Below, piece after piece: positions 16,432 to 47,970 of a stretch of DNA of 64,000 nucleotides (its first letter is position 1; each line of letters starts with the position of its first letter). A model generated the notes under the pieces. It did not search any database. It saw nothing but the letters and a program-made list of their open reading frames with translations, and was not told the origin of the DNA. The stretch lies in contig NZ_AUNE01000045.1 of the NCBI RefSeq assembly GCF_000447755.1, positions 1-64,000 on the forward strand. Reading direction: 5' to 3'. The DNA comes from Bacteriovorax sp. BSW11_IV. GTDB lineage: Bacteria; Bdellovibrionota; Bacteriovoracia; Bacteriovoracales; Bacteriovoracaceae. The translations under genes and the position numbers were made by a program.

Positions 16432-17388
16432 ATGGAACAACCATTTGTTTCAGTCATTATTAATTGTTTAAACGGCGAAGACTACCTTAAAGAGGCCATC
16501 GATTCAGTTTACGCACAAACATATACAAATTGGGAAATCATTTTCTGGGATAATAACTCTACGGATTCCACTGCTGAAATTGCCAAGTCTTATGGTGAAA
16601 AAGTAAAATACTATAAGGCAGATGTTACTGTTCCACTTGGCGAGGCAAGAAACCTTGCTTGGAAAAAAGCGACGGGAGATTTGATTGCTCTTTTAGATGC
16701 CGACGATATTTGGCTTCCAACAAGACTAGAAGAAGGGATAAATGCTCTTTGGAATTCTCCCCACTCTGTTTGTTATGCTGGATTGGAGAAAATTACAGAG
16801 GATGGAGCTCACATTGATAATGCTCTCCCACTATATGAACCAGGAAATTTATTTTCAAAATTACTACGCCAATTTGATGTGAATATTTCGACACTATTGA
16901 TTAAGCGTAAGGATCTTGAAAAGTATAATTTTGAATTTGATAAGAATATTACAGCAAGTGAAGAGTACAATCTCTTCGTTAGAATTGCTGCAAAATTGAC
17001 TTTCTGTCCAATTCACAAAGTATTGGCAAAACTTAGAATCCACGGAAATTCTCTTACAGATAAGGCCATAAGTAAGTGGGCCTATGAGAGAGAATATACT
17101 TTAAATCAAGTTCGTAATGAAAATCCTGGAATTGAAAAAGATTTTCCTAGAGAGTTCGAAGAAGCTTATGCGAGAGGAAATTATTATAGAGCAAGATATT
17201 TAATGAGCTTGAATGAAAAAAGTAAGGCGAGAGAGGAAATGGGCAAAGTAAAAAGTGTCGATTTCAAATACTTCCTTCTTTATGTGACACTCTTTTTCCC
17301 TAAAGAAGTATGGCATCTAATTCATACACCAGAGATGAAACACAAAATTCTTCCTCTGGTCTTTGGAATAAACAATAAAAAAAGCTAG
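16432..17388 (+). CDS. Glycosyltransferase family 2
   Basis: This 318-residue protein has the classical GT2 plan: VSVIINCLNGEDYL at the N-terminus, WDNNSTDST, then ARNLAWKKATGD and LLDADDIW with the metal-binding acidic motif. It adds one sugar during repeat-unit assembly on the cytoplasmic side. The C-terminal region (about 220-318) is helical and may dock to the membrane. A strong ribosome site (GAGAGGAG) overlaps the end of the polymerase gene. Its TAG stop lies inside the stem of the downstream bidirectional terminator. Confidence 0.88.
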   Translation: MEQPFVSVIINCLNGEDYLKEAIDSVYAQTYTNWEIIFWDNNSTDSTAEIAKSYGEKVKYYKADVTVPLGEARNLAWKKATGDLIALLDADDIWLPTRLEEGINALWNSPHSVCYAGLEKITEDGAHIDNALPLYEPGNLFSKLLRQFDVNISTLLIKRKDLEKYNFEFDKNITASEEYNLFVRIAAKLTFCPIHKVLAKLRIHGNSLTDKAISKWAYEREYTLNQVRNENPGIEKDFPREFEEAYARGNYYRARYLMSLNEKSKAREEMGKVKSVDFKYFLLYVTLFFPKEVWHLIHTPEMKHKILPLVFGINNKKS

Positions 17389-17406
17389 CATAAGCTAGCT
17401 TTTTTT
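17377..17406. terminator. Symmetric bidirectional terminator
   Basis: Seven A, then GCTAGC, a 4-base loop, GCTAGC and seven T. It reads as an intrinsic terminator on both strands and separates the convergent GT2 and Gfo/Idh genes. The GT2 stop (17386-17388) is in the stem; the Gfo/Idh stop (17405-17407) is in the T-run. Confidence 0.9.
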
Positions 17407-18463
17407 ATATTTCGAATCCTTCAACCGAATCCACTAATTTATACTTTTCTCTCCATTGATCATCAGCACAGTAGATCTTGTATACAAGTTCCATTGTTTT
17501 GAAAGCATCTCTAGAAGTTCCAAACTTAATTGGAGTATTATCAAGAACGGCATTAGCAAACTCTTGAATTTCATCACTCCAAGAATTGTCTTGGTTGTAA
17601 CGAATAGTCGTTTCCATTGGGTCTCCAGCATCATCTTCACCTGGGCGAACAATTGTAATTGTCTCTGCACCATAGCTCTTTGACCCTGAAAGGATACCAG
17701 AGAGAATAATTGCACCTTTAGAAAGTGAAATTTCTAGGTGAAATCTATGTCTCCATTGAGTTGCAGTAGAATTAAGGAAGGCCACAACGCCTCTTTCTGA
17801 TTTCATAAGAGCGTATGCGTTGTCTTCTACATCATGACCCCAGAAATGATTGTCTACATAGCTTTTGAATTCAACAAATTCTCCAGCGAACATTCTCATC
17901 AAGTCGGCCATGTGGATACCTTGATCTAGAAGGATTCCACCACCTGCGATATCTCTTTTTGCACGCCAAGTTGACTGGTAAGAAATAATTTTCGATTTAC
18001 CATAAACACCTCTCATATTGATTAGTGTTCCCAGTTCACCTGATTCAATGATCTCAAGCGCCTTTAGAATTGACTCATGATATCTGTGGTTGAAACCATA
18101 TTTAAGTTTTAAATGTGGGTTTTTTCTCTCTGCTGCGATCACATCTGCAATATCTTTAAGATTACGGCCTGGTGGCTTCTCGCAGAAAACGTGCATATTG
18201 TTATTTAATCCAGCGATTGTTACTTCTGCTGCAATATCGTTTGTTAAACAAACAAAAAGAACATCAATCTTTTCATTTGCAAGCATGTCTTTATAGTTTG
18301 TGTAAACATTTGCACCTTGCTCAGAACTTACAGGATTTTCTTTGTACTTAATGTCGCAAACAGCAACTGTGTTAAAGTTTGGATGAGAATCGATGTATCC
18401 TCTTCTTCTTTGACCAACAACTCCATAACCAGCTATGGCAACATTATAAGTTTTGTTATTCAT
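17405..18463 (-). CDS. Gfo/Idh/MocA-family oxidoreductase
   Basis: An NAD(P)-dependent sugar or cyclitol oxidoreductase. The N-terminal Rossmann fold has VAIAGYGVVGQRR and the family hallmark CEKPPGRN; the C-terminal half carries the alpha/beta domain with GGGILLDQGIHMADLM, where the catalytic lysine/histidine surroundings are kept. The frame begins at a TTG (18475), but the ATG at 18463 has a GGAG site 6 bases upstream and is preferred (352 residues). The gene follows the KdsB-like gene directly and is last of a four-gene minus-strand unit (methyltransferase, aldolase, KdsB-like, this). The likely substrate is an intermediate of the unusual sugar made by this unit. Confidence 0.85.
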   Translation of the reverse strand: MNNKTYNVAIAGYGVVGQRRRGYIDSHPNFNTVAVCDIKYKENPVSSEQGANVYTNYKDMLANEKIDVLFVCLTNDIAAEVTIAGLNNNMHVFCEKPPGRNLKDIADVIAAERKNPHLKLKYGFNHRYHESILKALEIIESGELGTLINMRGVYGKSKIISYQSTWRAKRDIAGGGILLDQGIHMADLMRMFAGEFVEFKSYVDNHFWGHDVEDNAYALMKSERGVVAFLNSTATQWRHRFHLEISLSKGAIILSGILSGSKSYGAETITIVRPGEDDAGDPMETTIRYNQDNSWSDEIQEFANAVLDNTPIKFGTSRDAFKTMELVYKIYCADDQWREKYKLVDSVEGFEI

Positions 18464-18464
18464 A

Positions 18465-19247
18465 TTAGACTCCAAAAGTTTCTCTGTATGTTTGGAAAAG
18501 GGCTTCAGACTTTAAGTAGTCTTCCACGATACCTACGTGTTCAGGAATATCTACATATAGACATTTTTGTTCAGCAAGAATCATTCTTACTTTGATCCCA
18601 TTTTCAATTAGTCTCATCATATCTACTGACTCAACTTCTTCAAGCATCGTCGGCGCCATATTGTTGAACTCGATCAAGAAGTCTCTCTTAAAGAAGATAA
18701 GTCCCGTTTGTCTGTATTTAGGATAATCTCCACTAAACTTCTTATTACTTGGGATTGGCTCTCTAGAATATGTAATGGCATTTGAGTTTTTATCAATGAT
18801 TACTTTTACAGAATTTGGAGATCTAAACTCTTCATCTGAAGTAATCATATTCATGATATTTACGATAGAAAGATCAGATGATGCTTGAAGAGCATCTAAG
18901 GCCTTAACGAAAACATCTGGAACAACAGTTGGCTCATCTCCTTGAACCATACCGATAATATCGTATTTAATTCCAGAAGCAGCTTCGATTTTTTGCAGAG
19001 CTTCAGCAGTTCTGTCAGTACATCTTTCGTGAGTATTGGCCGTCATCACAGCTTTACCGCCAATGCTCTCAACGTAGTCATAGATTTCTTGGTCACATGT
19101 CGCTACATAAACTTCATCAAAGCACTTCTTCATAATTGTTCTTTGATAGATGTGACCGATCATTGGAATACCGTTAATTTTTGCTAATGGTTTTCCTGGG
19201 AACCTAGTCGCTGCCATCCTTGCTGGAATGATTGCAATTGATTTCAT
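18465..19247 (-). CDS. KdsB-like CMP-ulosonate cytidylyltransferase
   Basis: KdsB enzymes activate 3-deoxy-2-ulosonic acids as CMP-sugars. Motifs: IPARMAATRFPGKPLAKI near the N-terminus, VQGDEP, and a TDR segment (HERCTDRTAEA). Length 260 is slightly above the usual 245-255. Residues that differ from E. coli KdsB include RQTG where KdsB has RHLG, and ESVDMMR where it has EMLEQLR, both in the substrate half. With an HpcH/HpaI aldolase immediately upstream instead of KdsA, the substrate is probably not ordinary KDO. A good AGGA ribosome site precedes the ATG. The specific substrate is inference; the CMP-transferase family is secure. Confidence 0.85.
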   Translation of the reverse strand: MKSIAIIPARMAATRFPGKPLAKINGIPMIGHIYQRTIMKKCFDEVYVATCDQEIYDYVESIGGKAVMTANTHERCTDRTAEALQKIEAASGIKYDIIGMVQGDEPTVVPDVFVKALDALQASSDLSIVNIMNMITSDEEFRSPNSVKVIIDKNSNAITYSREPIPSNKKFSGDYPKYRQTGLIFFKRDFLIEFNNMAPTMLEEVESVDMMRLIENGIKVRMILAEQKCLYVDIPEHVGIVEDYLKSEALFQTYRETFGV

Positions 19248-19264
19248 TTTATCCTCTCTAATAT

Positions 19265-20017
19265 TTATAATATCTCTATTGCTTTTCTACATGAAACATC
19301 GATCATTCTAATGTCGACACTGTAAGCGATAAATCGAAGTTTCTTTGCGATTACTTCTTTTAACTTTTCAGGATCTGGTTCAACAATGTGAAGCCCTCCC
19401 GGTTTGTTATATTTTGTAATAGCATCTTCAATTTTCTTCATCGCGCTCAAAAAATCTGGGTGTTGGAAATCTCCAGGGACACCAAGTGATGCTGAAAGAT
19501 CGTATGGTCCAATAATGTAACCATCAAGTTCATCCATCGTTAAAATCTCTTCAAGATTATTAACGGCATCAATATGTTCAATTTGAGCAATCAAAACAGA
19601 ACTCTCATTCAGCCATTTTTTATAATCTTCAAAACCAGCACCATATTTTTGAGCTCTAGCAAGTCCAACTCCTCTAAAACCTTTATTCGGATAGTGCATT
19701 GCTTTGTAAGCGGCCAAAACATCTTCTTTTGAATTAATCATTGGCACGATGATGCCGTGAGCACCTGCATCCATAACGCGCTTAATTTGAACAGGATCAT
19801 TTGAAGAAAGGCGAACTAGGGGGGCGCAGTTATTGGCATCAATAATGGCAATAAGATCACCGGCCTGTTCGATCGTTGTTACTGTGTGTTCAAGATCTAC
19901 ACACAACCAATCAAATTTTGCGTTGCACATGATCTCAGCGATGGAACGATTTGGAATTGTAATCCAACTTCCAAGGGTAACTTCTTTGTTTTGTCTAAGC
20001 TTGCTTTTTAAATTCAT
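19265..20017 (-). CDS. HpcH/HpaI-family 2-keto-3-deoxy-acid aldolase
   Basis: These metal-dependent class II aldolases make or split 2-keto-3-deoxy acids from pyruvate and an aldehyde. The 250-residue protein has GSWITIPN and VDLEHT (catalytic His), PLVRLSSND (pyruvate-binding Arg), AQIEHIDAVNN (metal-binding Glu) and YIIGPYDLSASLG (metal-binding Asp). Its place between a methyltransferase and a KdsB-like enzyme suggests a synthetic role: condensing pyruvate with an aldehyde to give the ulosonic acid that the next enzyme activates. A catabolic role is less likely here. An AGAAG ribosome site lies at the end of the upstream gene, only a few bases away. Confidence 0.85.
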   Translation of the reverse strand: MNLKSKLRQNKEVTLGSWITIPNRSIAEIMCNAKFDWLCVDLEHTVTTIEQAGDLIAIIDANNCAPLVRLSSNDPVQIKRVMDAGAHGIIVPMINSKEDVLAAYKAMHYPNKGFRGVGLARAQKYGAGFEDYKKWLNESSVLIAQIEHIDAVNNLEEILTMDELDGYIIGPYDLSASLGVPGDFQHPDFLSAMKKIEDAITKYNKPGGLHIVEPDPEKLKEVIAKKLRFIAYSVDIRMIDVSCRKAIEIL

Positions 20018-20021
20018 ATAT

Positions 20022-20984
20022 CTACTTCTTAGCTAGCACCCAAGTGTGTGAGCTTAATTTATGTTTTACTAAAAATTCTTGGAATTCTTTTAGGGCGTTT
20101 TCACCACGTCTTTGAAGAGCATTGATGAAATGGTTGTCAGTTGTTGCATTGCAAACGATATCGACATCGAGCTTGCCTGGCGTCCAAACTTCTACTTCCT
20201 TGAATCCAGCGCCTTTGAATACTTCTTCAAAACCTTGAACGCTTAGGAAATTTAAATGGTGTGGAGCAGAAATTGAATTCGACTTTCCTTGGAGAGTCAG
20301 AATGTCAAAACCTTCGTATCCAAGGCCAGTGATCAGAACATAGCCGCCGTCTTTGGCAAGATTGTAGAGTGAGCTGACAAAATTAAATGGCGAATGAACG
20401 TGTTCCATAACCTCTAAGCTTAGAACTAAGTCGAAGCGATTATGCCATTCTGTGGCATTTTCTGAAACTTCAAGAAGAACTTCGATACCCTTTTTACGAC
20501 ATTCCGCGGCCGAATCTGAATCTGGTTCAATAGCGTGAAGCTTGTAGTCAGAAGAAATCTTCGAAATCTCCTCTAGGAGCAGTCCGTGGCCTGCACCAAC
20601 GTCACAGATATTTTTAACACCTAGGTTTTTCTCTTTTATTAAATGAACAATATCATGGGCTTTCGGTTTGAACATCTTCTCACGACGCGCTTCCTTCACG
20701 GCCGGAAAGAACTTTGTAGACCAGAATTTAGAAGATTCACTCGAAAAGTAAAACTCATCTAATTGAGTTTTGTTAGGACGAGGTGAGCAAAACAGCGTAT
20801 GGCATTTTGCACATTCGTTGTAATTGTAGTCATTTTTTAAAAATTTATTGGAAGAAGAGTCAGTGTTACAGGCAGGGCAGGAAATGTGTTCAAATTGGTC
20901 GTGGTTGAGCTTTTTCCCATCAAGTTCGCTTAGCCTAAGATATTCTTCAAATATCTCCTTAGGTCTGATTTCTGCCTCTTTCAT
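20022..20984 (-). CDS. SAM-dependent methyltransferase with zinc-ribbon N-terminus
   Basis: A 320-residue class I methyltransferase. The N-terminal part has two CxxC pairs (CPAC near 35-38 and CAKC near 57-60), a putative zinc knuckle seen in Methyltransf_13-type sugar methyltransferases. The SAM-binding part includes CDVGAGHGLLLEEI, a HAIEPD acidic strand end, and LVLSLEVMEHVHSP. First gene of the minus-strand unit with the aldolase, KdsB-like and Gfo/Idh genes; AAAGGA ribosome site. It probably methylates the sugar or an intermediate. It is similar in plan to the gene at 44808-45734. Confidence 0.82.
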   Translation of the reverse strand: MKEAEIRPKEIFEEYLRLSELDGKKLNHDQFEHISCPACNTDSSSNKFLKNDYNYNECAKCHTLFCSPRPNKTQLDEFYFSSESSKFWSTKFFPAVKEARREKMFKPKAHDIVHLIKEKNLGVKNICDVGAGHGLLLEEISKISSDYKLHAIEPDSDSAAECRKKGIEVLLEVSENATEWHNRFDLVLSLEVMEHVHSPFNFVSSLYNLAKDGGYVLITGLGYEGFDILTLQGKSNSISAPHHLNFLSVQGFEEVFKGAGFKEVEVWTPGKLDVDIVCNATTDNHFINALQRRGENALKEFQEFLVKHKLSSHTWVLAKK

Positions 20985-21091
20985 ATCAATCCTTTATAAA
21001 TAGAAAACATTCGCAAGCAAGGATGACTCAAAAAACGCTGTCAGACAAGCCCTAAAGGGGTTTATAATACAATAATATTTAGTAAGTTCTA

Positions 21092-21121
21092 TTGACTTCA
21101 AGAAAAGCACTCTGTTAGTAT
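21092..21121 (+). promoter_or_regulatory. Predicted sigma-70 promoter for the 21-31 kb operon
   Basis: TTGACT (21092-21097), an 18-base spacer and TAGTAT (21116-21121) lie about 40 bp upstream of the SIS gene start, in the 178-bp divergent gap. Both boxes match the consensus in five of six (-35) and four to five of six (-10) positions. The divergent minus-strand unit should also start here, but I see no clear boxes for it. Confidence 0.5.
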
Positions 21122-21162
21122 TTTCCGTAATTATTATAACGTTATTTTCAGGGGCCAGAGCA

Positions 21163-21768
21163 ATGAATCAAGTTGAAAAAATCTTTAGCGAAAATAGAAG
21201 TGCATCTAGTTTTTGCAAGTCATACGTGACTTACCTTGGATCATTGTTACAGACTCTAGACTTCGACGCAATCGAGTCATTCGTAAACGATATTCTTAAG
21301 GCCAGAGAAGAAGGTAAAAGAGTAATCTTCCTAGGTAACGGTGGAAGTGCTGCAACAGCTTCTCACTTTGCAAATGATATCGGTATCGGAACAAGAGAAT
21401 ACGATAAGCCATTTAAGGCCATGAGCTTCACAGATAACAATGCTATTATTACAGCTCTTGGTAACGACAATGGATACGAAGAAATCTTCAAAAAACAACT
21501 TCAAGTTTATATGGAAAACGGCGACGTTGTCGTAGTTATTTCTGCTTCAGGAAATTCTGAAAACCTTGTAAGAGCTGTTGATTACGCAAAATCAAAAGGC
21601 AATAAGACTGTAGGTCTTCTTGGTTTTGATGGTGGTAAGCTAAAAGATATGTGTGACAGCAGTATTGTTGTTACTACAGCTAAGGGTGAGTACGGTCCAG
21701 TTGAAGACGTTCACATGGTACTAGATCACATGATCGGAAATTACCTTTACCAATTAATCAGAAACTAA
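21163..21768 (+). CDS. SIS-domain sugar-phosphate isomerase, GmhA-like
   Basis: A 201-residue single SIS domain. It has GNGGSAATASHFANDI, matching the GmhA metal-site region (His kept, the following acidic residue Asp instead of Glu), ISASGNSENLVRA (phosphate-binding loop) and VEDVHMVLDHM, aligned with the second GmhA His. GmhA converts sedoheptulose-7-phosphate to glycero-manno-heptose-7-phosphate. None of the usual partners (HddA kinase, GmhB, HddC) follow; instead an SDR and an AroB-like cyclase do. So the same fold may isomerise a ketose phosphate for this pathway. Start supported by a CAGGGG site nine bases upstream. Confidence 0.82.
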   Translation: MNQVEKIFSENRSASSFCKSYVTYLGSLLQTLDFDAIESFVNDILKAREEGKRVIFLGNGGSAATASHFANDIGIGTREYDKPFKAMSFTDNNAIITALGNDNGYEEIFKKQLQVYMENGDVVVVISASGNSENLVRAVDYAKSKGNKTVGLLGFDGGKLKDMCDSSIVVTTAKGEYGPVEDVHMVLDHMIGNYLYQLIRN

Positions 21769-21780
21769 AAGGTCTTTTAA

Positions 21781-22515
21781 ATGATGAACCTATCTGGCAA
21801 AAACGTTTTTGTCACTGGCGGAACTAGGGGAATCGGGGCTGAAATTGTAAAATCATTTTTAAACGCTGGAGCTACCGTTCACACGAACGGTAGAAACCAG
21901 GTTGAAATCAATGAACTCAATGAAAAAGCTGCTGACAATCTCTTTTATCACTGTGTCGATTTTCAAAACAACGAACAATTCGCAACATTTCTAGAAACTA
22001 TAAAAAATCTTAATATTGATATCCTTATTAACAACGCAGGAATTAACAAAGTTTCCTTGGCCCATGAAATTGCTACTGAAGACTTTGATAATATCCAGTT
22101 GATTAATGTGAAAAGACCCTTTGAACTAGTGAAGGCCGTTATTCCTCATATGCGTGAGAATAACTGGGGAAGAATTGTTAATATCACTTCTATTTTTGGT
22201 CATGTGACGAGATCGAAAAGACTTTCTTACACAACAAGTAAGTTTGCTATCAAGGGCATGACTAAAACATTGGCCGTGGACTATGCCGCAGACAATGTTC
22301 TAGTGAATTCTGTCGGTCCAGGTTTTATTGACACTGAATTGACTAGAACAATTTTATCTCAAGCTGAAATAGATGAACTTGTTTCAAGTGTTCCAGCGAA
22401 AAGACTTGGCAAGCCTGAAGAAGTTGCAAATCTCGTATTATTTCTTGGAAGTAATATGAATACATTTATTACAGGACAAAATATTCTAATTGATGGGGGA
22501 TTTACCTGTGTCTAA
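21781..22515 (+). CDS. Short-chain dehydrogenase/reductase
   Basis: A classical SDR of 244 residues with FVTGGTRGIGAE (NAD(P) binding), NNAGINK, ITSIFG with the active-site Ser, and YTTSK with the Tyr/Lys pair. The C-terminal GQNILIDGG is FabG-like. In this operon it most likely oxidises or reduces a hydroxyl of a sugar or cyclitol intermediate rather than a fatty-acid chain. Two adjacent ATG codons could start it; an AAAGG site fits the first. It overlaps the AroB-like gene by eight bases, so translation is probably coupled. Confidence 0.85.
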   Translation: MMNLSGKNVFVTGGTRGIGAEIVKSFLNAGATVHTNGRNQVEINELNEKAADNLFYHCVDFQNNEQFATFLETIKNLNIDILINNAGINKVSLAHEIATEDFDNIQLINVKRPFELVKAVIPHMRENNWGRIVNITSIFGHVTRSKRLSYTTSKFAIKGMTKTLAVDYAADNVLVNSVGPGFIDTELTRTILSQAEIDELVSSVPAKRLGKPEEVANLVLFLGSNMNTFITGQNILIDGGFTCV

Positions 22516-23575
22516 AACATTTGAAATTCAATCTTATACTGGTGCATATCAAGTATATTTCGAGAACGATCCATTTAGCATTATCGGAAAGTATGATGCC
22601 AATCAAACACACTTCATCATTGATGAAAATGTATTGAATCTATATAAAGACCAATTTTCTAAATTCGAGAATTTGAAAATTGTTCCCGTGAATGCAACGG
22701 AAGAAAATAAGAGCTTTGAGAAGGTTGATACTTATCTTGATCTTCTTCTTGATAATGAAATTAAACGTGATCACAAATTAGTGGCCATAGGTGGTGGTAT
22801 TACTCAAGATATCACTTGTTTTATAGCCTCAACTCTTTATAGAGGAATTGATTGGGATTTCTTTCCATCAACACTTCTTGCTCAATCAGATTCTTGCATC
22901 GGTTCAAAAAGTTCTATCAATTACAAAAAATATAAGAACTTAATCGGAACTTTCAATCCACCTCGTTCTGTTTATATCTCTACTGAATTTCAAAAAACTC
23001 TTCAGTACGATGATGTCAGATCAGGTATTGGTGAAATGATTAAAGTTCATATCATTGATTCAATCGATTCATATCGTAATCTTATCAAAGACTACGACCA
23101 ATTAAACAATGCTGAAACAATGATTAAGCACCTCTATCAATCACTTCAAATTAAGAAAAAAATTATTGAAGTTGATGAATTTGATAAAGGTATTAGAAAT
23201 GTAATGAATTACGGTCACTCATTTGGTCATGCCATTGAGTCTGCTACAAATTTTGGAATGCCTCACGGAGTTGCTGTAACTCTAGGAATGGATATTGCAA
23301 ATTATGTTTCTATGAGAGAAGGATATATCTCAGAAGAGCTTTACAACGAAATTCATGAAGGTCTTGTTAAAAATTATAAAGGCTTTGAGAAAACTGTAAT
23401 TCCTTTTGATAGCTTCATTGGTGCCCTAGGAAAAGATAAGAAAAATAAGAGCAATCAATTTGCAGTAATCTTGATTAACAAAGATTTAAAAGTTCAGAAA
23501 ATGTTCTTTGATAAGAACACTGTTCTTGAAAGTCATTGCCAAGACTTCTTTAATAAAGTGCTTAAGGAAATTTAA
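22508..23575 (+). CDS. AroB-like sugar-phosphate cyclase (3-dehydroquinate synthase family)
   Basis: This 355-residue protein has the DHQS-family NAD and metal sites: GGGITQD, TLLAQSDSCIGSKSSIN, KNLIGTF, GIGEMIK with the metal-ligand Glu (about 176), NYGHSFGHAIE (His about 237) and PHGVAVTLGM (His about 253). The family cyclises C7 sugar phosphates (DAHP to dehydroquinate; sedoheptulose-7-phosphate to valiolone-type products). Its place in a sugar operon, after a GmhA-like isomerase, argues for a cyclitol-forming or related role rather than shikimate synthesis. The frame opens at a TTG at 22490, but GTG at 22508 has GGGGGA seven bases upstream and overlaps the SDR stop. Exact product unknown. 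Confidence 0.85.
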   Translation: MSKTFEIQSYTGAYQVYFENDPFSIIGKYDANQTHFIIDENVLNLYKDQFSKFENLKIVPVNATEENKSFEKVDTYLDLLLDNEIKRDHKLVAIGGGITQDITCFIASTLYRGIDWDFFPSTLLAQSDSCIGSKSSINYKKYKNLIGTFNPPRSVYISTEFQKTLQYDDVRSGIGEMIKVHIIDSIDSYRNLIKDYDQLNNAETMIKHLYQSLQIKKKIIEVDEFDKGIRNVMNYGHSFGHAIESATNFGMPHGVAVTLGMDIANYVSMREGYISEELYNEIHEGLVKNYKGFEKTVIPFDSFIGALGKDKKNKSNQFAVILINKDLKVQKMFFDKNTVLESHCQDFFNKVLKEI

Positions 23576-24495
23576 TGAAAATTGCAGTCACTTCACGTTC
23601 GTTTTCAGCTAATAAAGACCTGACATCAAGTCTTTTAGAGAAGTATTCAGATGTTAAGCTAAATACTGAAGGGCTTAGCCTGGCAGGTGAAGAGCTTTAT
23701 GAGTACTTAAAAGATGCTGATGCTGCAATCATTGCTCTTGAGAAAGTCGATAAGAGTATTCTCGATAGACTTCCTAACTTAAAAATTATTTCAAAGTATG
23801 GTGTTGGGCTTGATAACTTAGATCTTGCGGCCATGAAAGAGAAGGGCATTAAGCTTGGTTGGGCCAGTGGGGCCAACAAGCGTTCCGTTGCAGAGCTTAC
23901 TCTATGTTTTGCAATTGGTATGATTAGAGATGTTTTCTCATCTTACGAGTTTGTAAAAAATGGCGGATGGAAACAATTTCTTGGAAATCAGCTAACTGAT
24001 AAAACTTATGGAATTGTTGGTCTTGGTAATGTTGGACAAGATCTTGTTAAACTTCTAAAGCCGTTTAATTGTCGCATAATTGCTTGTGATGTTTTAGATA
24101 AATCAGATTTCTGTAAAGAATATAATGTAGAACAAGTTGATATGAAGACTGTATTCAGTCAATCTGATGTCGTCAGTATTCACGTTCCTTGTCAAAGTGA
24201 TACGATCAATCTGATCAATAAAGATTCATTCGCTCTTATGAAGCAAACGGCAATTCTTATCAATACAGCAAGAGGCCGTATTGTTAATGAAGACGATCTT
24301 TATAGTGTATTGATTGAAAAGAAAATCGCTGGTGCCGCTTTTGATGTACTAGCTGAAGAACCACCAAAAAATAATCCGTTAATTTCTCTGGAAAACTTTT
24401 ACATCACTCCCCATATTGGCGGGTCTGCAAAAGAAGCTGTTCTCGCTATGGGAATGGGAGCAATTAACGGTCTGGAAAATTTTGTAGAGTATTAA
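23575..24495 (+). CDS. D-2-hydroxyacid dehydrogenase (SerA-like)
   Basis: A 306-residue NAD-dependent D-isomer-specific 2-hydroxyacid dehydrogenase. The NAD site is GIVGLGNVGQDL; the catalytic Arg is in INTARGRIV, Glu in FDVLAEEPP and His in ITPHIGGS, all present. Family members interconvert 2-keto and 2-hydroxy acids, for example 3-phosphoglycerate in serine synthesis; the ACT regulatory domain of SerA is missing. It shares one base with the AroB-like gene (TAATG) and touches the next gene. It probably acts on an acid intermediate of the same pathway. Confidence 0.87.
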   Translation: MKIAVTSRSFSANKDLTSSLLEKYSDVKLNTEGLSLAGEELYEYLKDADAAIIALEKVDKSILDRLPNLKIISKYGVGLDNLDLAAMKEKGIKLGWASGANKRSVAELTLCFAIGMIRDVFSSYEFVKNGGWKQFLGNQLTDKTYGIVGLGNVGQDLVKLLKPFNCRIIACDVLDKSDFCKEYNVEQVDMKTVFSQSDVVSIHVPCQSDTINLINKDSFALMKQTAILINTARGRIVNEDDLYSVLIEKKIAGAAFDVLAEEPPKNNPLISLENFYITPHIGGSAKEAVLAMGMGAINGLENFVEY

Positions 24496-25155
24496 ATGTC
24501 ATTAATCTACTTGTCTCATTTTTTAGAAGAAAGCACTCCTGGTTACGGCGGTAATCAGGGTTTCTTTGTTAAAAAAACAAAGAATATGTGCTGTGGAGAT
24601 AGCTGTAATCAGCAAGAATGGGTGATTAATAATCATATCGGTACTCATATAGATTGCCCAAAGCATTTTTCAGAAAATGGAAAAACAATAAGTGATTACG
24701 ATCCAAGCTTTTGGGTTTCTGCAAAAGTTCAAATGATTGAGATTCCTAATATGGATAATCAACTAATCAAATTAGATGATTATTTAGAAACCATCTCTAA
24801 AGATACTGAGTTTCTCATTATTAAAACAGGACACCAAAAACACAGAGGCAATCTTGAGTATTGGAATAATGGACCTGGGATGAGTCCTTGCTCTGGTTCA
24901 CTTTTAAGAGAGAATAGACCAAGTTTAAAATTCATTGGTTTTGATTTCATTTCATTAACAAGTTATCAATTTCGCCCAGAGGGGAGAGTTGCTCATAAAA
25001 ATTATCTCGATCCAAGTTTAGAGGGAAATCCTATCTTGATTGTCGAAGATATGAAGTTAGATGGACTTAAAGTAGCACCTAAGTCTGTTCAAATATTTCC
25101 ACTGTTAGTAAAGGATGCTGACGGTGGACAAGTAACAGTCGTTGCCGAGGTATAG
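24496..25155 (+). CDS. Cyclase/kynurenine-formamidase-like metal hydrolase
   Basis: A 219-residue protein with the family signature HIGTHIDCPKHF, whose His and Asp residues bind Mn or Zn in kynurenine formamidase and isatin hydrolase. Known members hydrolyse amides or lactams. Here, in a sugar operon, it could open or close a lactone or lactam or remove an N-formyl group; which one is unknown. It follows the 2-hydroxyacid dehydrogenase with no gap and overlaps the alternative start of the sulfotransferase gene. Confidence 0.82.
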   Translation: MSLIYLSHFLEESTPGYGGNQGFFVKKTKNMCCGDSCNQQEWVINNHIGTHIDCPKHFSENGKTISDYDPSFWVSAKVQMIEIPNMDNQLIKLDDYLETISKDTEFLIIKTGHQKHRGNLEYWNNGPGMSPCSGSLLRENRPSLKFIGFDFISLTSYQFRPEGRVAHKNYLDPSLEGNPILIVEDMKLDGLKVAPKSVQIFPLLVKDADGGQVTVVAEV

Positions 25156-26191: not shown

Positions 26192-27435
26192 AAGACAAGA
26201 ATCTCGTATTCGTTTTTCCCTATAGAGGTACAGGTGGTGTATCTCTTTTATTTTTAAGATTGGCCGAATATATTGGTCAAAACTTTAAAGATGACTTTAA
26301 AGGAATTTATCTCGTCGATTTCGAAGACGGATTTATGGCCAAGAATAAAAAAGATCCTTCAATTCAATTGATTCCCTATTCGGATGATCAAATTGAAATT
26401 CCTGAGCAGGCGATCATGATTTATCAGTCCATGACACCATGGACGATTTTTAAGAATTTTAATTATAAACAAGATACAAGAATTCTCTTTTGGAATTGTC
26501 ATCCTTTTAATCTCGTGCCAACTTTCCCTGGATTAAGAGAGTTAATGGGAAAATCGAGAAAATTCTCTCGTTTTGCCTTTTCAACATTTCTGTTCACCTT
26601 CAAAAATACTTGTGTGAATTTTCTAAGGCTGTTGGAAAATAAAAGTGCGATTGTTTTTGTCGATGGACCAAATGTAACTAATACTGAAGCCTATTTGGGC
26701 CTTAGGATTCATAATCCTTTTTATCTCCCTATTTTTCTTGGTCAGGATCAATTTGTTGGCAATGAAGTTTCTAGGGCCAAAGATGAACTCCACTTTGGCT
26801 GGGTTGGTCGTGTTGTAGATTTTAAGTTCTTCATATTAAAACATACTCTTGAGCGACTAGAGAAGCTCAGTGCTAAATCTGGTCAGAAAATTAAGTTCAC
26901 TGTGGTCGGAACAGGGGATTATATTGGGCAATTGAAAGATGCCGTTAAAACTTTCAATCATTTAGAGATCGAGTTTATCGATCATATTGGTCCCTCTGAG
27001 CTTACTGGATTTATCAAAGAGCTCGATATTTTATTTGCGATGGGAACTTCTGCCCTTGAAGGTGGAGCTGCCAAGGTGCCAACTGTGCTTCTTGATTTTA
27101 CTTATGGAGAGTTGGAGCAAGATTACATATTCAAATTTCTCTATGAGTCACAAAATTTTTCAGTGGCCGATTACATAGGTTCAGAGCACTACCAAAATAA
27201 CAATACAAGTTTGGATACTATTGTTGACGAGGTGCTTCGTCGCAAGGAAGTCCATGGGCAAAAGTGCTACGAATACGTTAGTAAAAACCATTCCATAGAT
27301 GTAATATATAAAAAATTTGTTTTAGCTGTTATGAATACTCAGTTAACATATAGCAATCTTCAAGAGGCGAACTTGCTTCGAGTTCCCTTAGTTTATAGAA
27401 TTTTTAAGAAAGTCAGAGCTTTAATAAAAGGATGA
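26185..27435 (+). CDS. Glycosyltransferase, GT-B fold (GT4-like)
   Basis: A 416-residue protein with the GT-B pattern: YRGTGGVSLLFLRLAEYI as the N-terminal glycine-rich loop, GWVGRVVDFK opening the C-terminal domain, VVGTGDYIGQLK, and AMGTSALEGGAAKVP corresponding to the ExxxxxE-type donor-site segment. It adds one residue of the repeat unit, perhaps the product of the preceding pathway. It overlaps the sulfotransferase gene and shares ATGA with rfbF's frame. C-terminal about 30 residues are basic and may attach to the membrane. Confidence 0.75.
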   Translation: MLKDKNLVFVFPYRGTGGVSLLFLRLAEYIGQNFKDDFKGIYLVDFEDGFMAKNKKDPSIQLIPYSDDQIEIPEQAIMIYQSMTPWTIFKNFNYKQDTRILFWNCHPFNLVPTFPGLRELMGKSRKFSRFAFSTFLFTFKNTCVNFLRLLENKSAIVFVDGPNVTNTEAYLGLRIHNPFYLPIFLGQDQFVGNEVSRAKDELHFGWVGRVVDFKFFILKHTLERLEKLSAKSGQKIKFTVVGTGDYIGQLKDAVKTFNHLEIEFIDHIGPSELTGFIKELDILFAMGTSALEGGAAKVPTVLLDFTYGELEQDYIFKFLYESQNFSVADYIGSEHYQNNNTSLDTIVDEVLRRKEVHGQKCYEYVSKNHSIDVIYKKFVLAVMNTQLTYSNLQEANLLRVPLVYRIFKKVRALIKG

Positions 27436-27437
27436 GT

Positions 27438-28214
27438 ATGAAAGTTGTAATTTTAGCAGGTGGTCTAGGAACAAGATTGGCTGAAGAAACAAACTTAAGA
27501 CCAAAACCAATGGTTGAGATCGGTGGAATGCCAATTTTGTGGCACATTATGAAAATTTACTCTCACTATGGTTACAACGAATTCTTACCAGCACTTGGAT
27601 ACAAGGGTCACGTTATTAAAGAATTCTTCACAGATTATCTAACAAGAAGTTGCGATATTACAGTAAATCTTGGATCTGGAAAGATTGAGCATAAGAATAA
27701 TAAAATTAGTGAAGATTGGATTATTCGTTTGAATGATACAGGTAAAGATTCTCTAACTGGTGGAAGACTTCACCGTTTGGAGTCTGAGCTTGCTGGTGAA
27801 GAAACATTCATGCTTACTTATGGTGATGGAGTTGCAAATGTAGATATTGAAAAGCTAGTTGCGTTCCACAAGTCACACGGAAAAATTGCGACTGTAACAG
27901 CAGTTCGTCCTCCTGCACGTTTTGGTGCCTTAGAAATTAACGAAGGAAAAGTAACTCAGTTCCACGAGAAACCACAAGTAGGTGAAGGGTGGATCAATGG
28001 TGGTTTCTTCGTATTCAATAAAGAAGTATTCAAGTATTTAAATGGTGATATGACTATTCTTGAAAAAGAGCCTCTAGAGAATCTTGCAAAAGATAATCAA
28101 CTAATGGCGTTCAAGCACGACGGTTTCTGGCACTGTATGGATACAATCAGAGACAAAGATACTTTAAATAATCTTTGGGCCTCTGGCGATGCTCCTTGGA
28201 AAGTTTGGAAATAA
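27438..28214 (+). CDS. rfbF: Glucose-1-phosphate cytidylyltransferase
   Basis: RfbF makes CDP-glucose from glucose-1-phosphate and CTP. It has VVILAGGLGTRLAEET, KPMVEIGGMPILWHIMK and GWINGGFFVFNKEVF, all hallmarks of the enzyme; 258 residues, as usual. The frame starts at 27432, but the ATG at 27438 has AAAGG at a proper distance and gives the family's usual MKVVILAGG start. It is followed three bases later by rfbG. Confidence 0.95.
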   Translation: MKVVILAGGLGTRLAEETNLRPKPMVEIGGMPILWHIMKIYSHYGYNEFLPALGYKGHVIKEFFTDYLTRSCDITVNLGSGKIEHKNNKISEDWIIRLNDTGKDSLTGGRLHRLESELAGEETFMLTYGDGVANVDIEKLVAFHKSHGKIATVTAVRPPARFGALEINEGKVTQFHEKPQVGEGWINGGFFVFNKEVFKYLNGDMTILEKEPLENLAKDNQLMAFKHDGFWHCMDTIRDKDTLNNLWASGDAPWKVWK

Positions 28215-28217
28215 GCG

Positions 28218-29318
28218 ATGTTTGGAAATATTTATAAAGGCAAAAAAGTAATTGTAACGGGCAACACTGGCTTTAAGGGATCATGGCTAACGACATGGTT
28301 ACTTGAGCTAGGGGCCAATGTCGTTGGAATTTCTGACTGTGTTCCAACAACTCCTTCAATGTTTGAAGAGCTAAAGCTTCGTGAAAAAATTAAGTATTAC
28401 GAACTTGATATTAGAAACTTCGAACAGCTTAAAGAAGTCATTGTTGCAGAGAAACCTGATTTTGTATTTCACTTGGCCGCTCAGGCCATCGTTTCAACTT
28501 CATATTCAAACCCTCTTGAAACAATTCAAGTAAATGCAATGGGAACTGCCCATGTTCTTGAATCACTGAGAGCTCTCACAAACAACTGTGTGGCCATCAT
28601 GATTACAAGTGATAAGTGTTACGAAAATGTAGAATGGTGTTGGGGATATAAAGAAACAGACGCTCTTGGTGGAAAAGATATTTATTCTGCTTCTAAGGCC
28701 GCTGCTGAAGTAATCATCCACGCATACCAAAAATCATTCTTTGCTGATGAAAATGGCAACGTGAAAATTGCTGTTGCTCGCGCTGGTAATGTTATTGGCG
28801 GTGGTGACTGGGCAAAAGATAGAATCGTTGTTGATTGCGTGAAAAGTTGGAGTAATGGTGAAGTTGTTGAAATTCGCTCACCAAGTGCAACTAGACCATG
28901 GCAACACGTTCTCGAGCCACTAAGTGGTTACTTGGCCCTAGGACAAGATATTTCATCTGATAATTCTCTTCATGGTGAAGCATTTAATTTTGGTCCAAGA
29001 GCAGAGCAAAACAGAACGGTTCTTGAGCTACTAGAAGACCTTTCTAAGTTCTGGCACTTTGATAATGCAAATGAAGCCTACTCTGTAGTTGAAAATAGAC
29101 CATTTAATGAAGCAGGACTTCTGAAGCTTAATTGTGACAAGGCCCTTTTCTCAATGAAGTGGCAAGCAACAATGAATTACAAGAGCACTGTTAGCTTTGT
29201 AAGTAAGTGGTACTACAGCTTCTATAAAGAGAAAAAAAATATGTTCGATTTAACTATTGGGCAAATTAAAGAATATTCAGAAATGGCATGTGAACAAGAG
29301 TTGAAATGGACAAAATAG
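28218..29318 (+). CDS. rfbG: CDP-glucose 4,6-dehydratase
   Basis: RfbG converts CDP-glucose to CDP-4-keto-6-deoxyglucose with NAD. Its extended-SDR motifs are VTGNTGFKGSWLTTWL (a signature of this subfamily), FHLAAQAIVSTSY, ITSDKCYENVEW and YSASKAAAEVI with the Tyr/Lys pair. Length 366 is typical. It overlaps the next gene by 13 bases. With rfbF it supplies the CDP branch; the usual next enzyme, the His-type RfbH dehydrase, is not here. Confidence 0.95.
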   Translation: MFGNIYKGKKVIVTGNTGFKGSWLTTWLLELGANVVGISDCVPTTPSMFEELKLREKIKYYELDIRNFEQLKEVIVAEKPDFVFHLAAQAIVSTSYSNPLETIQVNAMGTAHVLESLRALTNNCVAIMITSDKCYENVEWCWGYKETDALGGKDIYSASKAAAEVIIHAYQKSFFADENGNVKIAVARAGNVIGGGDWAKDRIVVDCVKSWSNGEVVEIRSPSATRPWQHVLEPLSGYLALGQDISSDNSLHGEAFNFGPRAEQNRTVLELLEDLSKFWHFDNANEAYSVVENRPFNEAGLLKLNCDKALFSMKWQATMNYKSTVSFVSKWYYSFYKEKKNMFDLTIGQIKEYSEMACEQELKWTK

Positions 29319-29743
29319 AAGGACTCGTTCTTACTCCATTAAAGATCATTGATCATCCTCTTGGCAATATTATGCACGGGATGAAGGCCTCTGATGAGAC
29401 TTATAAGTCTTTTGGTGAGGCCTATTTTTCATTCGTAAATTGCGGCTCTGTTAAGGGCTGGAAGCTACATACTAAAATGATTTTGAATTTGGTTGTACCA
29501 CTTGGGGAAATCAGATTTGTGGCCTTTGATGATAGAGAGAACTCTAAAACGAAAGGACAATTTCAAGAAATCATTTTATCGCGCAATAACTATCAAAAAT
29601 TAACTGTTCCTCCTGGTGTTTGGTTGGCCTTTCAAGGTCGCTCACAAGGTGAGAATCTGTTGTTAAATATGGCCTCGATTGAACACGATCCTAGTGAGGC
29701 CATCAATAAATCTCTTGAGGAAATCCAATATGACTGGAACTAA
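29306..29743 (+). CDS. RmlC-like cupin, nucleotide-sugar epimerase/isomerase family
   Basis: A 145-residue protein resembling the dTDP-4-dehydrorhamnose 3,5-epimerase family but shorter than RmlC (about 180). GWKLHTKMILNLVVPLGEIRFVAFD corresponds to the jelly-roll core with one His kept, and TVPPGVWLAFQG to the active-site end. Between rfbG and an aminotransferase it probably epimerises or isomerises the CDP-4-keto-6-deoxy sugar before amination. It overlaps the genes on both sides, which suggests tight coupling. Confidence 0.75.
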   Translation: MDKIEGLVLTPLKIIDHPLGNIMHGMKASDETYKSFGEAYFSFVNCGSVKGWKLHTKMILNLVVPLGEIRFVAFDDRENSKTKGQFQEIILSRNNYQKLTVPPGVWLAFQGRSQGENLLLNMASIEHDPSEAINKSLEEIQYDWN

Positions 29744-30848
29744 TATTCGTCTTTCAAAATGTTCAATTTCTCAAACAGAAAAAGATGCGGTAATGCGCGC
29801 ATTGAATAATGAATACTTTGGAATGGGAAAAGAAGTTCAAGCTTTTGAATCTGAACTAAAAGAGTATTTTGGATGTGAAGGCGAAGTTATTTGTGTAAAC
29901 ACTGGAACATCTGCTCTTCATATTACTCTGGCCTGTTTAGATATTGGTCCAGGAGATGAAGTTCTTGTCCCTTCTTTGACATACGTTGCTTCTTATCAGG
30001 CGATTTCTGCAACTGGGGCAACGCCTGTTTCATGTGATGTGGATTTAGACTCAGCATTTATCAGTATTGAAGATGCGAGAAAAAAAATTACAAAAAAGAC
30101 TAAGGCGATTATGCCTGTTCACTATGCAAGCAACAGTTTGCAAATTGATGCCGTTTACAAATTAGCAAAAGAGTTCAATCTAAGAGTCATCGAAGATGCT
30201 GCTCACTCTGTGGGATGTGAACGTGATGGGAAGAGAGTTGGCGCAATCGGAGATATCCTGTGCTTTAGCTTTGATGGAATTAAAAACATCACAAGTGGAG
30301 AAGGTGGGGCCGTCGTCACTGCTGATCAAACCCTTGCTCAAAGAATTAAAGATGCCCGACTTTTAGGCGTGGAAAAAGACACAGAAAAAAGATTTTCAGG
30401 TGAAAGATCTTGGGTATTCGATGTGAATCATCAAGGATTTCGCTATCATATGAGCGACATTATGGCCGCTCTAGGTAGAGCACAGCTGTCTCGCCTCGAT
30501 TTCCTAAAGCAAAGAAGACAAGAGATTGCTCTCCAATACTTTGAGGGCCTTAACATGAATTCGGCCATCGAACTTTTCAATTTCGATTATAAAAATATCT
30601 GCTCACATATCTTTGTTATCAAAGTAAAAGATGGCAAAAGAGACGCCCTGAGAGATTATTTACAAGACAATAATGTGGCCACGGGTGTTCACTACTATCC
30701 AAACCACTTTTTATCTAAATACAAGTCTGAACCTCTCGCTAATGTTGAGACTTTATACGGACAAATTTTGACTCTTCCAATTCATCCGGACTTAACTTCT
30801 AGTGATATTTCTAGGGTGATTGAGCTGATCAATAAATTTGGCCTCTAA
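29730..30848 (+). CDS. DegT/DnrJ/EryC1 sugar aminotransferase (lysine type)
   Basis: A PLP-dependent nucleotide-sugar aminotransferase of 372 residues. NTGTSALHITLACLDIGPGDEV (PLP phosphate region), VIEDAAHSVG with the PLP Asp, and SFDGIKNITSGEGG with the Schiff-base Lys (about 185) are clear. Because the lysine is kept, it should transfer an amino group; it is not the His-type 3-dehydrase RfbH found in paratose and tyvelose pathways. Predicted product: a CDP-amino-6-deoxy sugar. The frame opens at 29679; ATG 29730 has a GAGG site nine bases upstream. The stop lies in the loop of a terminator hairpin. Confidence 0.88.
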   Translation: MTGTNIRLSKCSISQTEKDAVMRALNNEYFGMGKEVQAFESELKEYFGCEGEVICVNTGTSALHITLACLDIGPGDEVLVPSLTYVASYQAISATGATPVSCDVDLDSAFISIEDARKKITKKTKAIMPVHYASNSLQIDAVYKLAKEFNLRVIEDAAHSVGCERDGKRVGAIGDILCFSFDGIKNITSGEGGAVVTADQTLAQRIKDARLLGVEKDTEKRFSGERSWVFDVNHQGFRYHMSDIMAALGRAQLSRLDFLKQRRQEIALQYFEGLNMNSAIELFNFDYKNICSHIFVIKVKDGKRDALRDYLQDNNVATGVHYYPNHFLSKYKSEPLANVETLYGQILTLPIHPDLTSSDISRVIELINKFGL

Positions 30849-44811: not shown

Positions 44812-45734
44812 TTTTTTCTCGCTATAACCAGTGTTTGACCAATGTAATAGGTGCAAGGGAGCTTATCTAGTCTGAGCAATTCAACTGCCTTTCTGAAGTA
44901 TTTGAAAAAACCAAAATAAGACTCTGCTCTTTTAAGAACATAACCAAGTTCAAGAGTTTGATAGTATGGGGAGATTGTCTCAACTTTAAAATCAAACTTA
45001 TTGAGATACTCTCTAATTGTTTTTGGAGTGAAATAAAATAAATGAACACTTAAGTAAAATGGCCACTTCTTCCCTAATAGTTTGCATGGCCATGTGTCGA
45101 TATCTGGATAGTTTACAACAAAAATACCATCATCTTTTAAAATTCTTTTAATCTCTATAATCGTTTGGGCAGGATCAGTAATGTGTTCAATAACATCCCA
45201 CAAAGTTACGATATCGAAAGTCTTGTCATCAAAATGATGATCTAGCAGAATTCCTGGTCTAATGTCGAGTTTATAGGTTTCGCGACCTTTATTTGCGAGC
45301 CATTTTGCGGGTTCAATCCCTGTCACAGTAAAGCCTAGGTCGTTGGCAGCTTTTGGAAAAGCAGCTCCTGCGCACCCAATATCCAGAACTTTTTTATCTT
45401 TTGATGCCGTTATATTGTTCTTTGAAATAATTTTTTTTAGTGATTTAGAAAAAGTTCGGATTCTCTGTGGATTTTGAGAAAAGAAAGTATCGTCCTCTGC
45501 AGATGAATAGGACTCCATGATAATATCTTCTTTAACTCTAGGATTAAGATAAGATAAATCACACTTGTTACATTTTACGAGTTGATCGTATAGAACTTGA
45601 TCGCTAGAAGAAGAGTAAACTTTTAAGAAATCTTCTTCCGTTTTAAAATTTGAATAATCGCTATTGAAAACAATCTTGTAATTGTCTGAAGAGCAATTGA
45701 TACATTTTACATTTTCAAGAACATTTTCAATCAT
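44808..45734 (-). CDS. SAM-dependent methyltransferase with zinc-ribbon N-terminus
   Basis: A 308-residue class I methyltransferase. Two CxxC pairs (CINC near 11-14 and CNKC near 55-58) form a probable zinc ribbon; VLDIGCAGAAFPKAA is the SAM loop, TGIEPAK the acidic strand, and IVTLWDVIEHITDP the usual post-SAM segment. Same overall plan as 20022-20984. Its start overlaps the radical-SAM stop by four bases, so the two enzymes probably act in one pathway. Substrate unknown. Confidence 0.82.
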   Translation of the reverse strand: MIENVLENVKCINCSSDNYKIVFNSDYSNFKTEEDFLKVYSSSSDQVLYDQLVKCNKCDLSYLNPRVKEDIIMESYSSAEDDTFFSQNPQRIRTFSKSLKKIISKNNITASKDKKVLDIGCAGAAFPKAANDLGFTVTGIEPAKWLANKGRETYKLDIRPGILLDHHFDDKTFDIVTLWDVIEHITDPAQTIIEIKRILKDDGIFVVNYPDIDTWPCKLLGKKWPFYLSVHLFYFTPKTIREYLNKFDFKVETISPYYQTLELGYVLKRAESYFGFFKYFRKAVELLRLDKLPCTYYIGQTLVIARKK

Positions 45735-47313: not shown

Positions 47314-47970
47314 TTAAAAAAGGCCCACAATCTCGCACAAAGAAGTGATCTCTCTCACTGATTCTGGCGTCGGATATTTGTGGTAGATTCCATTTGCATT
47401 AATGATGCGAATGCTTTGCCAGCCGAGCTTTTCGGGGGCGATGAAGTCTTTTTTAGGATTATCTGCGATATAAGTATAATCACAATTTGGGAATTTTTCT
47501 TGGATCATTTCAAAGCAATTCGTATCAGGTTTTGGAGTGCCAAAAACACCTGTTCTAATAATAAAATCAATGTACTTTTCTAGTCCAAGAGATTGAATCT
47601 TATGGAGTTGTGTTTTTTCGTGTCCATCTGTCAAAAGAGCAAGTTTGTGTCCTTTTCTTCTCAGTTCTGTGAGGACAAATTCTGAGTCGATGGGAAGTTT
47701 GATATTTGGCGTGTGAAAGCGATAGATATCGATAATTTCCTTTAGATCAATTTCTTTATATTGATCACAGAGAACGTTGAGGTTTTTACCACTGCCATTG
47801 GCCACAAAGTCATTCATAAGTTCACAAAATATTTGTGATGAACAGAGATTGTGTTTTTCGAAAACATAATTGGAAACGGCCTGAAACCCACTTTTTACAA
47901 AGTCTAGTTCAAAGTAAAGAGTGTCATCCATATCGAAAACAATAACTTTAGAAGAAAATTCCTTCATCAT
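47314..47970 (-). CDS. HAD-family hydrolase (YjjG-like)
   Basis: A 218-residue HAD protein: VIVFDMDDTLYFE (nucleophile), ALLTDGHEKTQ (motif II), GTPKPDTNCF (motif III) and YIADNPKKDF (motif IV). It overlaps the ATP-grasp gene by 23 bases. Pairs of an ATP-grasp enzyme and a HAD phosphatase are often seen in polysaccharide loci, which suggests they act on one intermediate, but the reaction is not established. Either of two ATG codons could be the start. Confidence 0.82.
   Translation of the reverse strand: MMKEFSSKVIVFDMDDTLYFELDFVKSGFQAVSNYVFEKHNLCSSQIFCELMNDFVANGSGKNLNVLCDQYKEIDLKEIIDIYRFHTPNIKLPIDSEFVLTELRRKGHKLALLTDGHEKTQLHKIQSLGLEKYIDFIIRTGVFGTPKPDTNCFEMIQEKFPNCDYTYIADNPKKDFIAPEKLGWQSIRIINANGIYHKYPTPESVREITSLCEIVGLF

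Follow-up and report, generated by a model that had tools for sequence, protein, structure and literature searches.

A cluster of nine genes, lying at positions 17405–25155 of a 64,000-nucleotide stretch of Bacteriovorax sp. BSW11_IV (contig NZ_AUNE01000045.1, positions 1 to 64,000; this whole stretch is called the window below), probably encodes a pathway to a cytidine monophosphate (CMP)-activated ulosonic acid. More specifically, we propose, with about even confidence, that the cluster makes a CMP-activated 2-ulosonic acid for the surrounding surface polysaccharide without any phosphoenolpyruvate (PEP)-dependent synthase, through the reaction scheme set out below. The elements that carry this proposal are the gene set itself, its recurrence, the replacement patterns within it, a separate clade of KdsB-like proteins and a series of intact active-site motifs. 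The first-pass annotation had read the nine genes as one undescribed pathway, and its gene assignments stand: all nine open reading frames are open and intact at the positions first noted and match the named families. The genes are packed closely into two operons that diverge from each other. The plus-strand operon encodes a SIS-domain isomerase, a short-chain dehydrogenase (SDR), an AroB-like protein, a 2-hydroxyacid dehydrogenase (2HAD) and a kynurenine-formamidase-like PF04199 hydrolase (Cyc), and the minus-strand operon a methyltransferase, an HpcH/HpaI aldolase, a KdsB-like protein and a Gfo/Idh oxidoreductase; within both, neighbouring genes overlap or are at most 17 bp apart. A search of the open-access full-text literature, which leaves subscription papers aside, returned no description of a gene set of such composition, in line with the novelty initially claimed.

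The KdsB-like protein (18465–19247, minus strand), a putative CMP-sugar (ulosonic acid) cytidylyltransferase, is a second, non-housekeeping copy. It scores above the cut-off for NF009905 (270.6 bits) and NF003952, and below it for the equivalogs TIGR00466 (148.5/155.2) and NF003948 (168/281). The other kdsB of the genome (G000:C2), whose product is 27.6% identical to the window copy, has pyrG, kdsA and a kdsC-like gene next to it. In the tree, the window KdsB clade (support 93/92) stands apart from housekeeping KdsB and KpsU, which fall together on the other side (95/90). The window protein thus neither groups with housekeeping KdsB nor is the only copy, and CMP activation by a non-housekeeping transferase as the end step is supported. 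In related clusters the same slot is taken by any of four CMP-transferase clades: that of the window KdsB, two NeuA-like clades (NeuAct and KdsB22) and a side branch of NeuAct. The substrate of KdsB and NeuA enzymes is a hemiketal 2-keto acid; for the KdsB family it is usually a 3-deoxy acid.

Recurrence was assessed through the Cyc protein. A Cyc profile built from four genomes of the phylum was scanned against 85,000 species genomes, and 80 of 239 confirmed loci were retained; 52 loci with close Cyc relatives were then compared with 26 control loci bearing more remote PF04199 proteins. The former contain 2HAD in 36 cases, a cluster-type CMP transferase in 28 and the aldolase in 19, and the controls none of them (0/26 each; p = 6e-10, 5e-7 and 2e-4, respectively). 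There were 11 KdsB matches, and those of the Cloacimonadota loci L087 and L094, which group with housekeeping KdsB, are excluded from the 28. The SIS protein (21 loci), Gfo/Idh (18), the AroB-like protein (15), an extended SDR (15), a HAD phosphatase (17), YhcH (13) and an inositol-monophosphatase (IMPase, 5) are likewise found in the 52 loci and in 0/26 controls. The co-occurrence suggested as a check in the first-pass annotation is thus observed, and a joint pathway, at that stage a conjecture, is supported by the recurrence of the gene set in over 10 phyla. The combination of 2HAD, Cyc and CMP transferase is carried by Bdellovibrionota, Bacteroidota, Balneolota, Ignavibacteriota, Thermodesulfobacteriota, Omnitrophota, Cloacimonadota, Spirochaetota, Bacillota, Pseudomonadota and one uncultured archaeon, with Mucilaginibacter, Syntrophomonas and Fluviispira among the cultured carriers. 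Of these, M. gossypii Gh-67 lacks the aldolase and M. phenanthrenivorans has it; the Fluviispira carrier is F. multicolorata. Within the phylum of the source genome the set is patchy (19/369 genomes) and absent from the one other congeneric genome. Fifteen further loci of this phylum, found by Cyc only (13 of them in genomes outside the first set), follow the same pattern, and five of these share an identical six-gene cluster, Ald-EPIM-Cyc-HAD-2HAD-CMP transferase (Ald standing for the aldolase). Scanning the genome collection with AroB alone returned no relatives, and AroB and Cyc queries gave no close match among phage and plasmid records.

Comparison of these loci reveals a constant core, composed of 2HAD, Cyc and a CMP transferase, which is supplied by one sugar oxidoreductase together with one module that removes phosphate. 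2HAD (23575–24495, plus strand; NAD-type, D-specific, PF02826) and Cyc (24496–25155, plus strand) are the most constant members, and we know of no CMP-ulosonate pathway in which either has a role. The core is joined by one of two side sets that exclude each other. Type A, to which the window belongs, comprises 18 loci with Gfo/Idh and SIS, of which 14 have AroB and SDR, three an IMPase, one neither and none both; the SDR accompanies AroB in all 14 type-A loci having the latter. Type B comprises 14 loci in which the extended SDR occurs with 2HAD; a HAD phosphatase is found in 12/14 of them and Gfo/Idh, SIS and AroB in 0/14. In the genome G136, the divergent layout of the window is retained, an IMPase replaces SDR and AroB, and an aldolase 56% identical to that of the window lies 11 kb away. 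It is mainly because of this equivalence between the AroB/SDR pair and a phosphatase that AroB is read here as an enzyme of phosphate elimination and not as a maker of carbocycles.

The AroB-like protein (22508–23575, plus strand; GTG start set by homology with L037) had been presented as a cyclase with an intact metal site. The AroB-like fold assignment and the metal site hold, since the ligands E176, H237 and H253 are correct and invariant in relatives. The cyclase label has to be refined: the protein belongs to TIGR04425 (450 bits, cut-off 400), entitled 'AroB-related putative sugar phosphate phospholyase' and annotated as a cyclising phospholyase, and it falls below the cut-off of dehydroquinate (DHQ) synthase TIGR01357 (259.5 bits, cut-off 305). 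A separate aroB is present in the genome (G000:C30). Among 15 cluster AroB proteins, all mapped metal and phosphate residues of DHQ synthase are invariant except at the K187 and E266 positions, together with one N244 to Q substitution. The position of E266 (E. coli numbering), the DHQ synthase glutamate that follows the metal histidine, is V, I or Q in 15/15, and that of K187 is H in 10/15. The residues aligned with K250 and R264 of the Aspergillus nidulans enzyme, which we take to be its ligands of the substrate carboxylate, are retained. Taken together, this pattern suggests a substrate resembling 3-deoxy-D-arabino-heptulosonate 7-phosphate, an ulosonic acid phosphate, with altered chemistry. 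In four other loci (L039–L042, from G283, G281, G248 and G269), a TIGR04425 AroB and an SDR lie beside a thiamine diphosphate-dependent enzyme and CDP-sugar genes, several of them with a remote HpcH/HpaI-like protein and L042 without any HpcH-like protein; this is perhaps another AroB-using sugar pathway.

We infer the product and every reaction from these patterns and from the enzyme families; the exact order given here is tentative and unlikely to be right in every step. The SIS protein (21163–21768, plus strand) reaches 111.6 bits for the GmhA equivalog TIGR00441 (cut-off 209), and its best solved-structure matches are phosphoheptose isomerases (GmhA). This likeness to GmhA suggests an entry at sedoheptulose 7-phosphate, the probable ketose phosphate that SIS would convert to an aldose phosphate. 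The NAD-type Gfo/Idh/MocA oxidoreductase (17405–18475, minus strand, first ATG at 18463; PF01408/PF22725), or else the extended SDR acting as an aldose 1-dehydrogenase, would then oxidise C1 to yield a lactone. The closest solved structures of Gfo/Idh include glucose-fructose and aldose-aldose oxidoreductases, which suggests that an aldose or its phosphate is oxidised at C1, and copies 55–66% identical occur in L035, L036 and L037. Cyc would hydrolyse the lactone to an aldonic acid: it belongs to the PF04199 fold family with an invariant HxGTHxD His/Asp motif, and its score for the KynB arylformamidase equivalog is only 46.7 bits against 223. 2HAD, as an aldonate 2-dehydrogenase, would oxidise the C2 hydroxyl to give a 2-keto acid. 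AroB might proceed through oxidation, elimination of the terminal phosphate without ring closure and re-reduction, and the SDR (21781–22515, plus strand; assigned from family matches and its pairing with AroB) would reduce the resulting ketone to leave a terminally deoxygenated sugar acid; sister clusters would replace both by a plain phosphatase, namely an IMPase or, in type B, a HAD phosphatase. The aldolase would make, exchange or re-set the C3–C4 bond, either by epimerisation or by an exchange of pyruvate for hydroxypyruvate that would yield a 3-deoxy acid. Finally, the KdsB-like enzyme would add CMP and the methyltransferase would decorate the sugar. Such an oxidative route fits the CMP step, because the C1 dehydrogenase, Cyc and 2HAD would yield a 2-keto sugar acid of the kind that KdsB and NeuA activate. 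It is also supported by the occurrence of complete sets without an aldolase anywhere in the genome. E. coli YhcH is an N-acetylneuraminate (sialic acid) anomerase (PMC8141875), and the YhcH relatives of 13 loci would fit a ketose-acid intermediate.

The aldolase (19265–20017, minus strand; PF03328) is the least explained member. Its catalytic motifs DLEH, VR, QIEH and GPYDLS are intact in the alignment, and it scores below the HpaI, GarL and RhmA equivalog cut-offs. A KdsB-clade or NeuA-like CMP transferase is present, and often adjacent, in 19/19 aldolase-bearing Cyc loci. The aldolase is found in 30/32 genomes with the window KdsB or NeuAct clade and in 0/10 with KdsB22 or the NeuAct side branch (p = 4e-8, a value that counts genomes and not independent events, the 0/10 resting on whole-genome searches). 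Absences were counted only after whole-genome search because two aldolases initially taken as missing turned up, that of G033 in an Ald-KdsB pair on another contig and that of G136 at the distance given above. Since it tracks the CMP-transferase clade and is missing with two of them, the aldolase is likely to alter the activated sugar and cannot be the sole ulosonate-forming step. Monophyly of all cluster aldolases was considered and is not established by the tree, where the outside sequence of L161, itself part of an Ald-KdsB pair, nests inside and some forks are weak. In two loci without an HpcH aldolase, other carbon–carbon enzymes occupy the same place, separating Cyc from 2HAD or lying within the core: a split transketolase in L050 (9894–11656) and a transaldolase/FSA with an FGGY kinase in L070 (4326–5009).

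To our knowledge, the established CMP-ulosonic routes (Kdo, sialic, legionaminic, pseudaminic and Kdn) all depend on one PEP-dependent reaction. As first noted, the cluster has no PEP-dependent ulosonate synthase; the whole source genome (59 contigs, 3.65 Mb, 98% complete) has no NeuB, and its kdsA sits away from the cluster, with the housekeeping kdsB. In three carriers, the archaeon, Syntrophomonas wolfei and a member of the Peptococcaceae, KdsA (TIGR01362) is absent or under the cut-off. Neither KdsA nor NeuB is found in G389 and G392, which have the full type-A set and an aldolase, and G381, a KdsB22-type carrier, lacks NeuB and the aldolase and has no KdsA scoring over the cut-off. A legionaminic acid cluster was envisaged from L035, where NeuB and NeuC lie beside the set, and was rejected: the source genome lacks NeuB and the set occurs without it.

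How the 2-keto acid is formed is the point on which the most serious alternative differs. Other enzymes of the cluster might make an aldehyde, which the aldolase would join to pyruvate to form a 3-deoxy-2-ulosonic acid in place of KdsA or NeuB, before activation by KdsB; the first-pass annotation leaned towards such a replacement of the PEP synthase. The intact motifs, the company of a KdsB-clade or NeuA-like transferase in all 19 aldolase-bearing loci, the clade dependence (30/32 against 0/10) and the preference of the KdsB family for 3-deoxy acids all speak for it. However, clusters having all other steps and one of the two other CMP-transferase clades lack the aldolase genome-wide, and the most constant pair, 2HAD and Cyc, would be left without a role, so that we consider this possibility real but rather unlikely. 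A carbocyclic product, with AroB closing a ring as do DHQ synthase and the sedoheptulose-7-phosphate cyclases and the CMP transferase serving another sugar of the same glycan, agrees with the annotation of TIGR04425 and with the retention of all DHQ synthase metal and phosphate residues. It is less likely than a CMP-2-ulosonic acid, and unlikely in itself: a phosphatase replaces AroB and SDR in otherwise equal clusters, type B has no AroB, and E266 is replaced throughout. The cyclitol option raised initially is weak, because KdsB and NeuA require a hemiketal 2-keto acid and the AroB/SDR pair is interchangeable with a plain phosphatase.

Two other explanations would dissociate the CMP transferase from its neighbours. 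The Ald-KdsB pair is indeed separable, lying on its own contig in G384 and L161, and G180 has the set of Gfo/Idh, SIS, SDR, AroB, 2HAD and Cyc without the aldolase; this set could then make one sugar, and the methyltransferase, aldolase and KdsB another. Such a coexistence of two independent pathways is improbable in view of the single type-B operons (L088, L184, L185 and L188) and of the type-A Bacteroidota operons, which hold 2HAD, Cyc, aldolase and CMP transferase in one string. The KdsB-like protein could also be a second, KpsU-like CMP-Kdo synthetase for surface-polysaccharide Kdo, the remaining genes serving unrelated sugars, as its best solved-structure match is KpsU and the genome has KdsA. 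This idea is largely refuted, and we retain it as a very slight chance, since KpsU groups with housekeeping KdsB and not with the window clade, some carriers lack KdsA (including the archaeon and two Bacillota) and the gene set travels together across phyla. Several points nevertheless weigh against the oxidative route to a CMP-2-ulosonic acid. Both the deoxygenating action of the AroB/SDR pair and the lactonase action of Cyc are putative. G180 and G378 have a cluster-type KdsB and no aldolase, and if pyruvate were the source of the ulosonate through the aldolase, there would be no need for 2HAD and Cyc. Most carrier genomes are drafts, in which missing KdsA, NeuB or aldolase genes may be gaps, so that any single absence is weak, the absences being jointly concordant. 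We know of no surface glycan described for a carrier.

The surroundings of the cluster are those of a polysaccharide locus, with an O-antigen ligase/Wzy domain, several glycosyltransferases, a polysaccharide flippase and nucleotide-sugar enzymes. The minus operon starts with a SAM methyltransferase (20022–20984; PF13489, N-terminal Cys motif), which had been counted as a pathway member; it is present and recurs adjoining Ald-KdsB in L057, L068 and L081, and is accessory, outside the core. This operon ends at a terminator-like hairpin with a 15-bp stem (17375–17408, minus strand). The 178-bp intergenic region between the operons (20985–21162) contains promoter-like matches on both strands (21072–21121), which are weak and fewer than expected from shuffling. 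The plus operon extends beyond 25155 with a sulfotransferase gene, one whose product has no Pfam match, and CDP-sugar genes. The CDP-sugar set RfbF-RfbG(-cupin)-DegT, which follows Cyc in the window (27432–30848), is also beside Cyc in L053, L054, L057, L066 and L095, from other phyla. At L054 (G180:C9, around 23.4 kb), a KdsB-like gene adjoins class-I aminotransferase-like, other Gfo/Idh and acetyltransferase-like genes, in the genome that has the core and no aldolase, and this may be a different CMP-sugar. PF01973 (MptE/Maf-like) proteins adjoin the aldolase or the CMP transferase in ten loci (L052, L061, L066, L070, L074, L075, L076, L077, L078 and L085); as Maf proteins are transferases of nonulosonic acids, they are candidate transferases of the new sugar. 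Further along the window, a 931-residue protein (41373–44168, minus strand) fuses NTP-transferase, CofD (2-phospho-L-lactate transferase-like, PF01933) and family-2 glycosyltransferase domains, a fusion of which we know no other example, and the same locus encodes a radical SAM protein and a PylC-like ATP-grasp protein (45731–47245 and 47948–48883, minus strand).

A broader view, conceivable and held with less than even confidence, is that of a widespread, horizontally shared route in which the 2-keto acid arises by aldose oxidation and not by PEP addition, the aldolase and the AroB-type phospholyase being product-diversifying modules. If true, CMP-sugars would be made by a third principle, in addition to condensations of the KdsA and NeuB types. 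A PEP-independent pathway recurring in Bdellovibrionota, Bacteroidota, Bacillota, desulfobacteria, Omnitrophota and an archaeon would imply that a class of surface sugars has so far gone unseen. Orphan families would gain functions (TIGR04425, the PF04199 group and the HpcH/HpaI and KdsB clades), and the automatic labels 'AroB', 'KdsB' and 'kynurenine formamidase' would be corrected in many cases.

Compared with known systems, the cluster shares with the Kdo pathway (KdsD-KdsA-KdsC-KdsB) a SIS-fold sugar-phosphate isomerase, a loss of phosphate and CMP transfer by a KdsB-family enzyme. It differs by the lack of the KdsA step, by the addition of Gfo/Idh, 2HAD, the PF04199 hydrolase, the AroB-like protein and the HpcH/HpaI aldolase, by its separate KdsB clade and by its presence in genomes without KdsA. 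The final CMP activation is common to the sialic, legionaminic and pseudaminic acid pathways (NeuB/LegI/PseI and NeuA/LegF/PseF), and some clusters further resemble these by a NeuA-like transferase, a relative of the YhcH anomerase and Maf-like PF01973 proteins; in contrast, the cluster has neither NeuB nor a nucleotide-linked amino-sugar precursor, and 2HAD and Cyc are absent from those pathways. With the DHQ synthase of the shikimate pathway and the sedoheptulose-7-phosphate cyclases, the AroB-like protein shares its fold, its metal site and the DHQ synthase phosphate and carboxylate residues, whereas its family (TIGR04425), the replacement of Glu by V, I or Q, the constant pairing with an SDR and the surface-polysaccharide context set it apart. 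Fold and catalytic motifs relate the cluster aldolases to the pyruvate aldolases HpaI, GarL and RhmA, which are catabolic, whereas the former lie beside CMP transferases in surface-sugar loci. The non-phosphorylating oxidation of aldoses (Gfo/Idh or SDR aldose dehydrogenase, lactonase, aldonate) has the same order of oxidoreductase and hydrolase; that route is catabolic and continues with a dehydratase, whereas in the cluster 2HAD and a CMP transferase come next.

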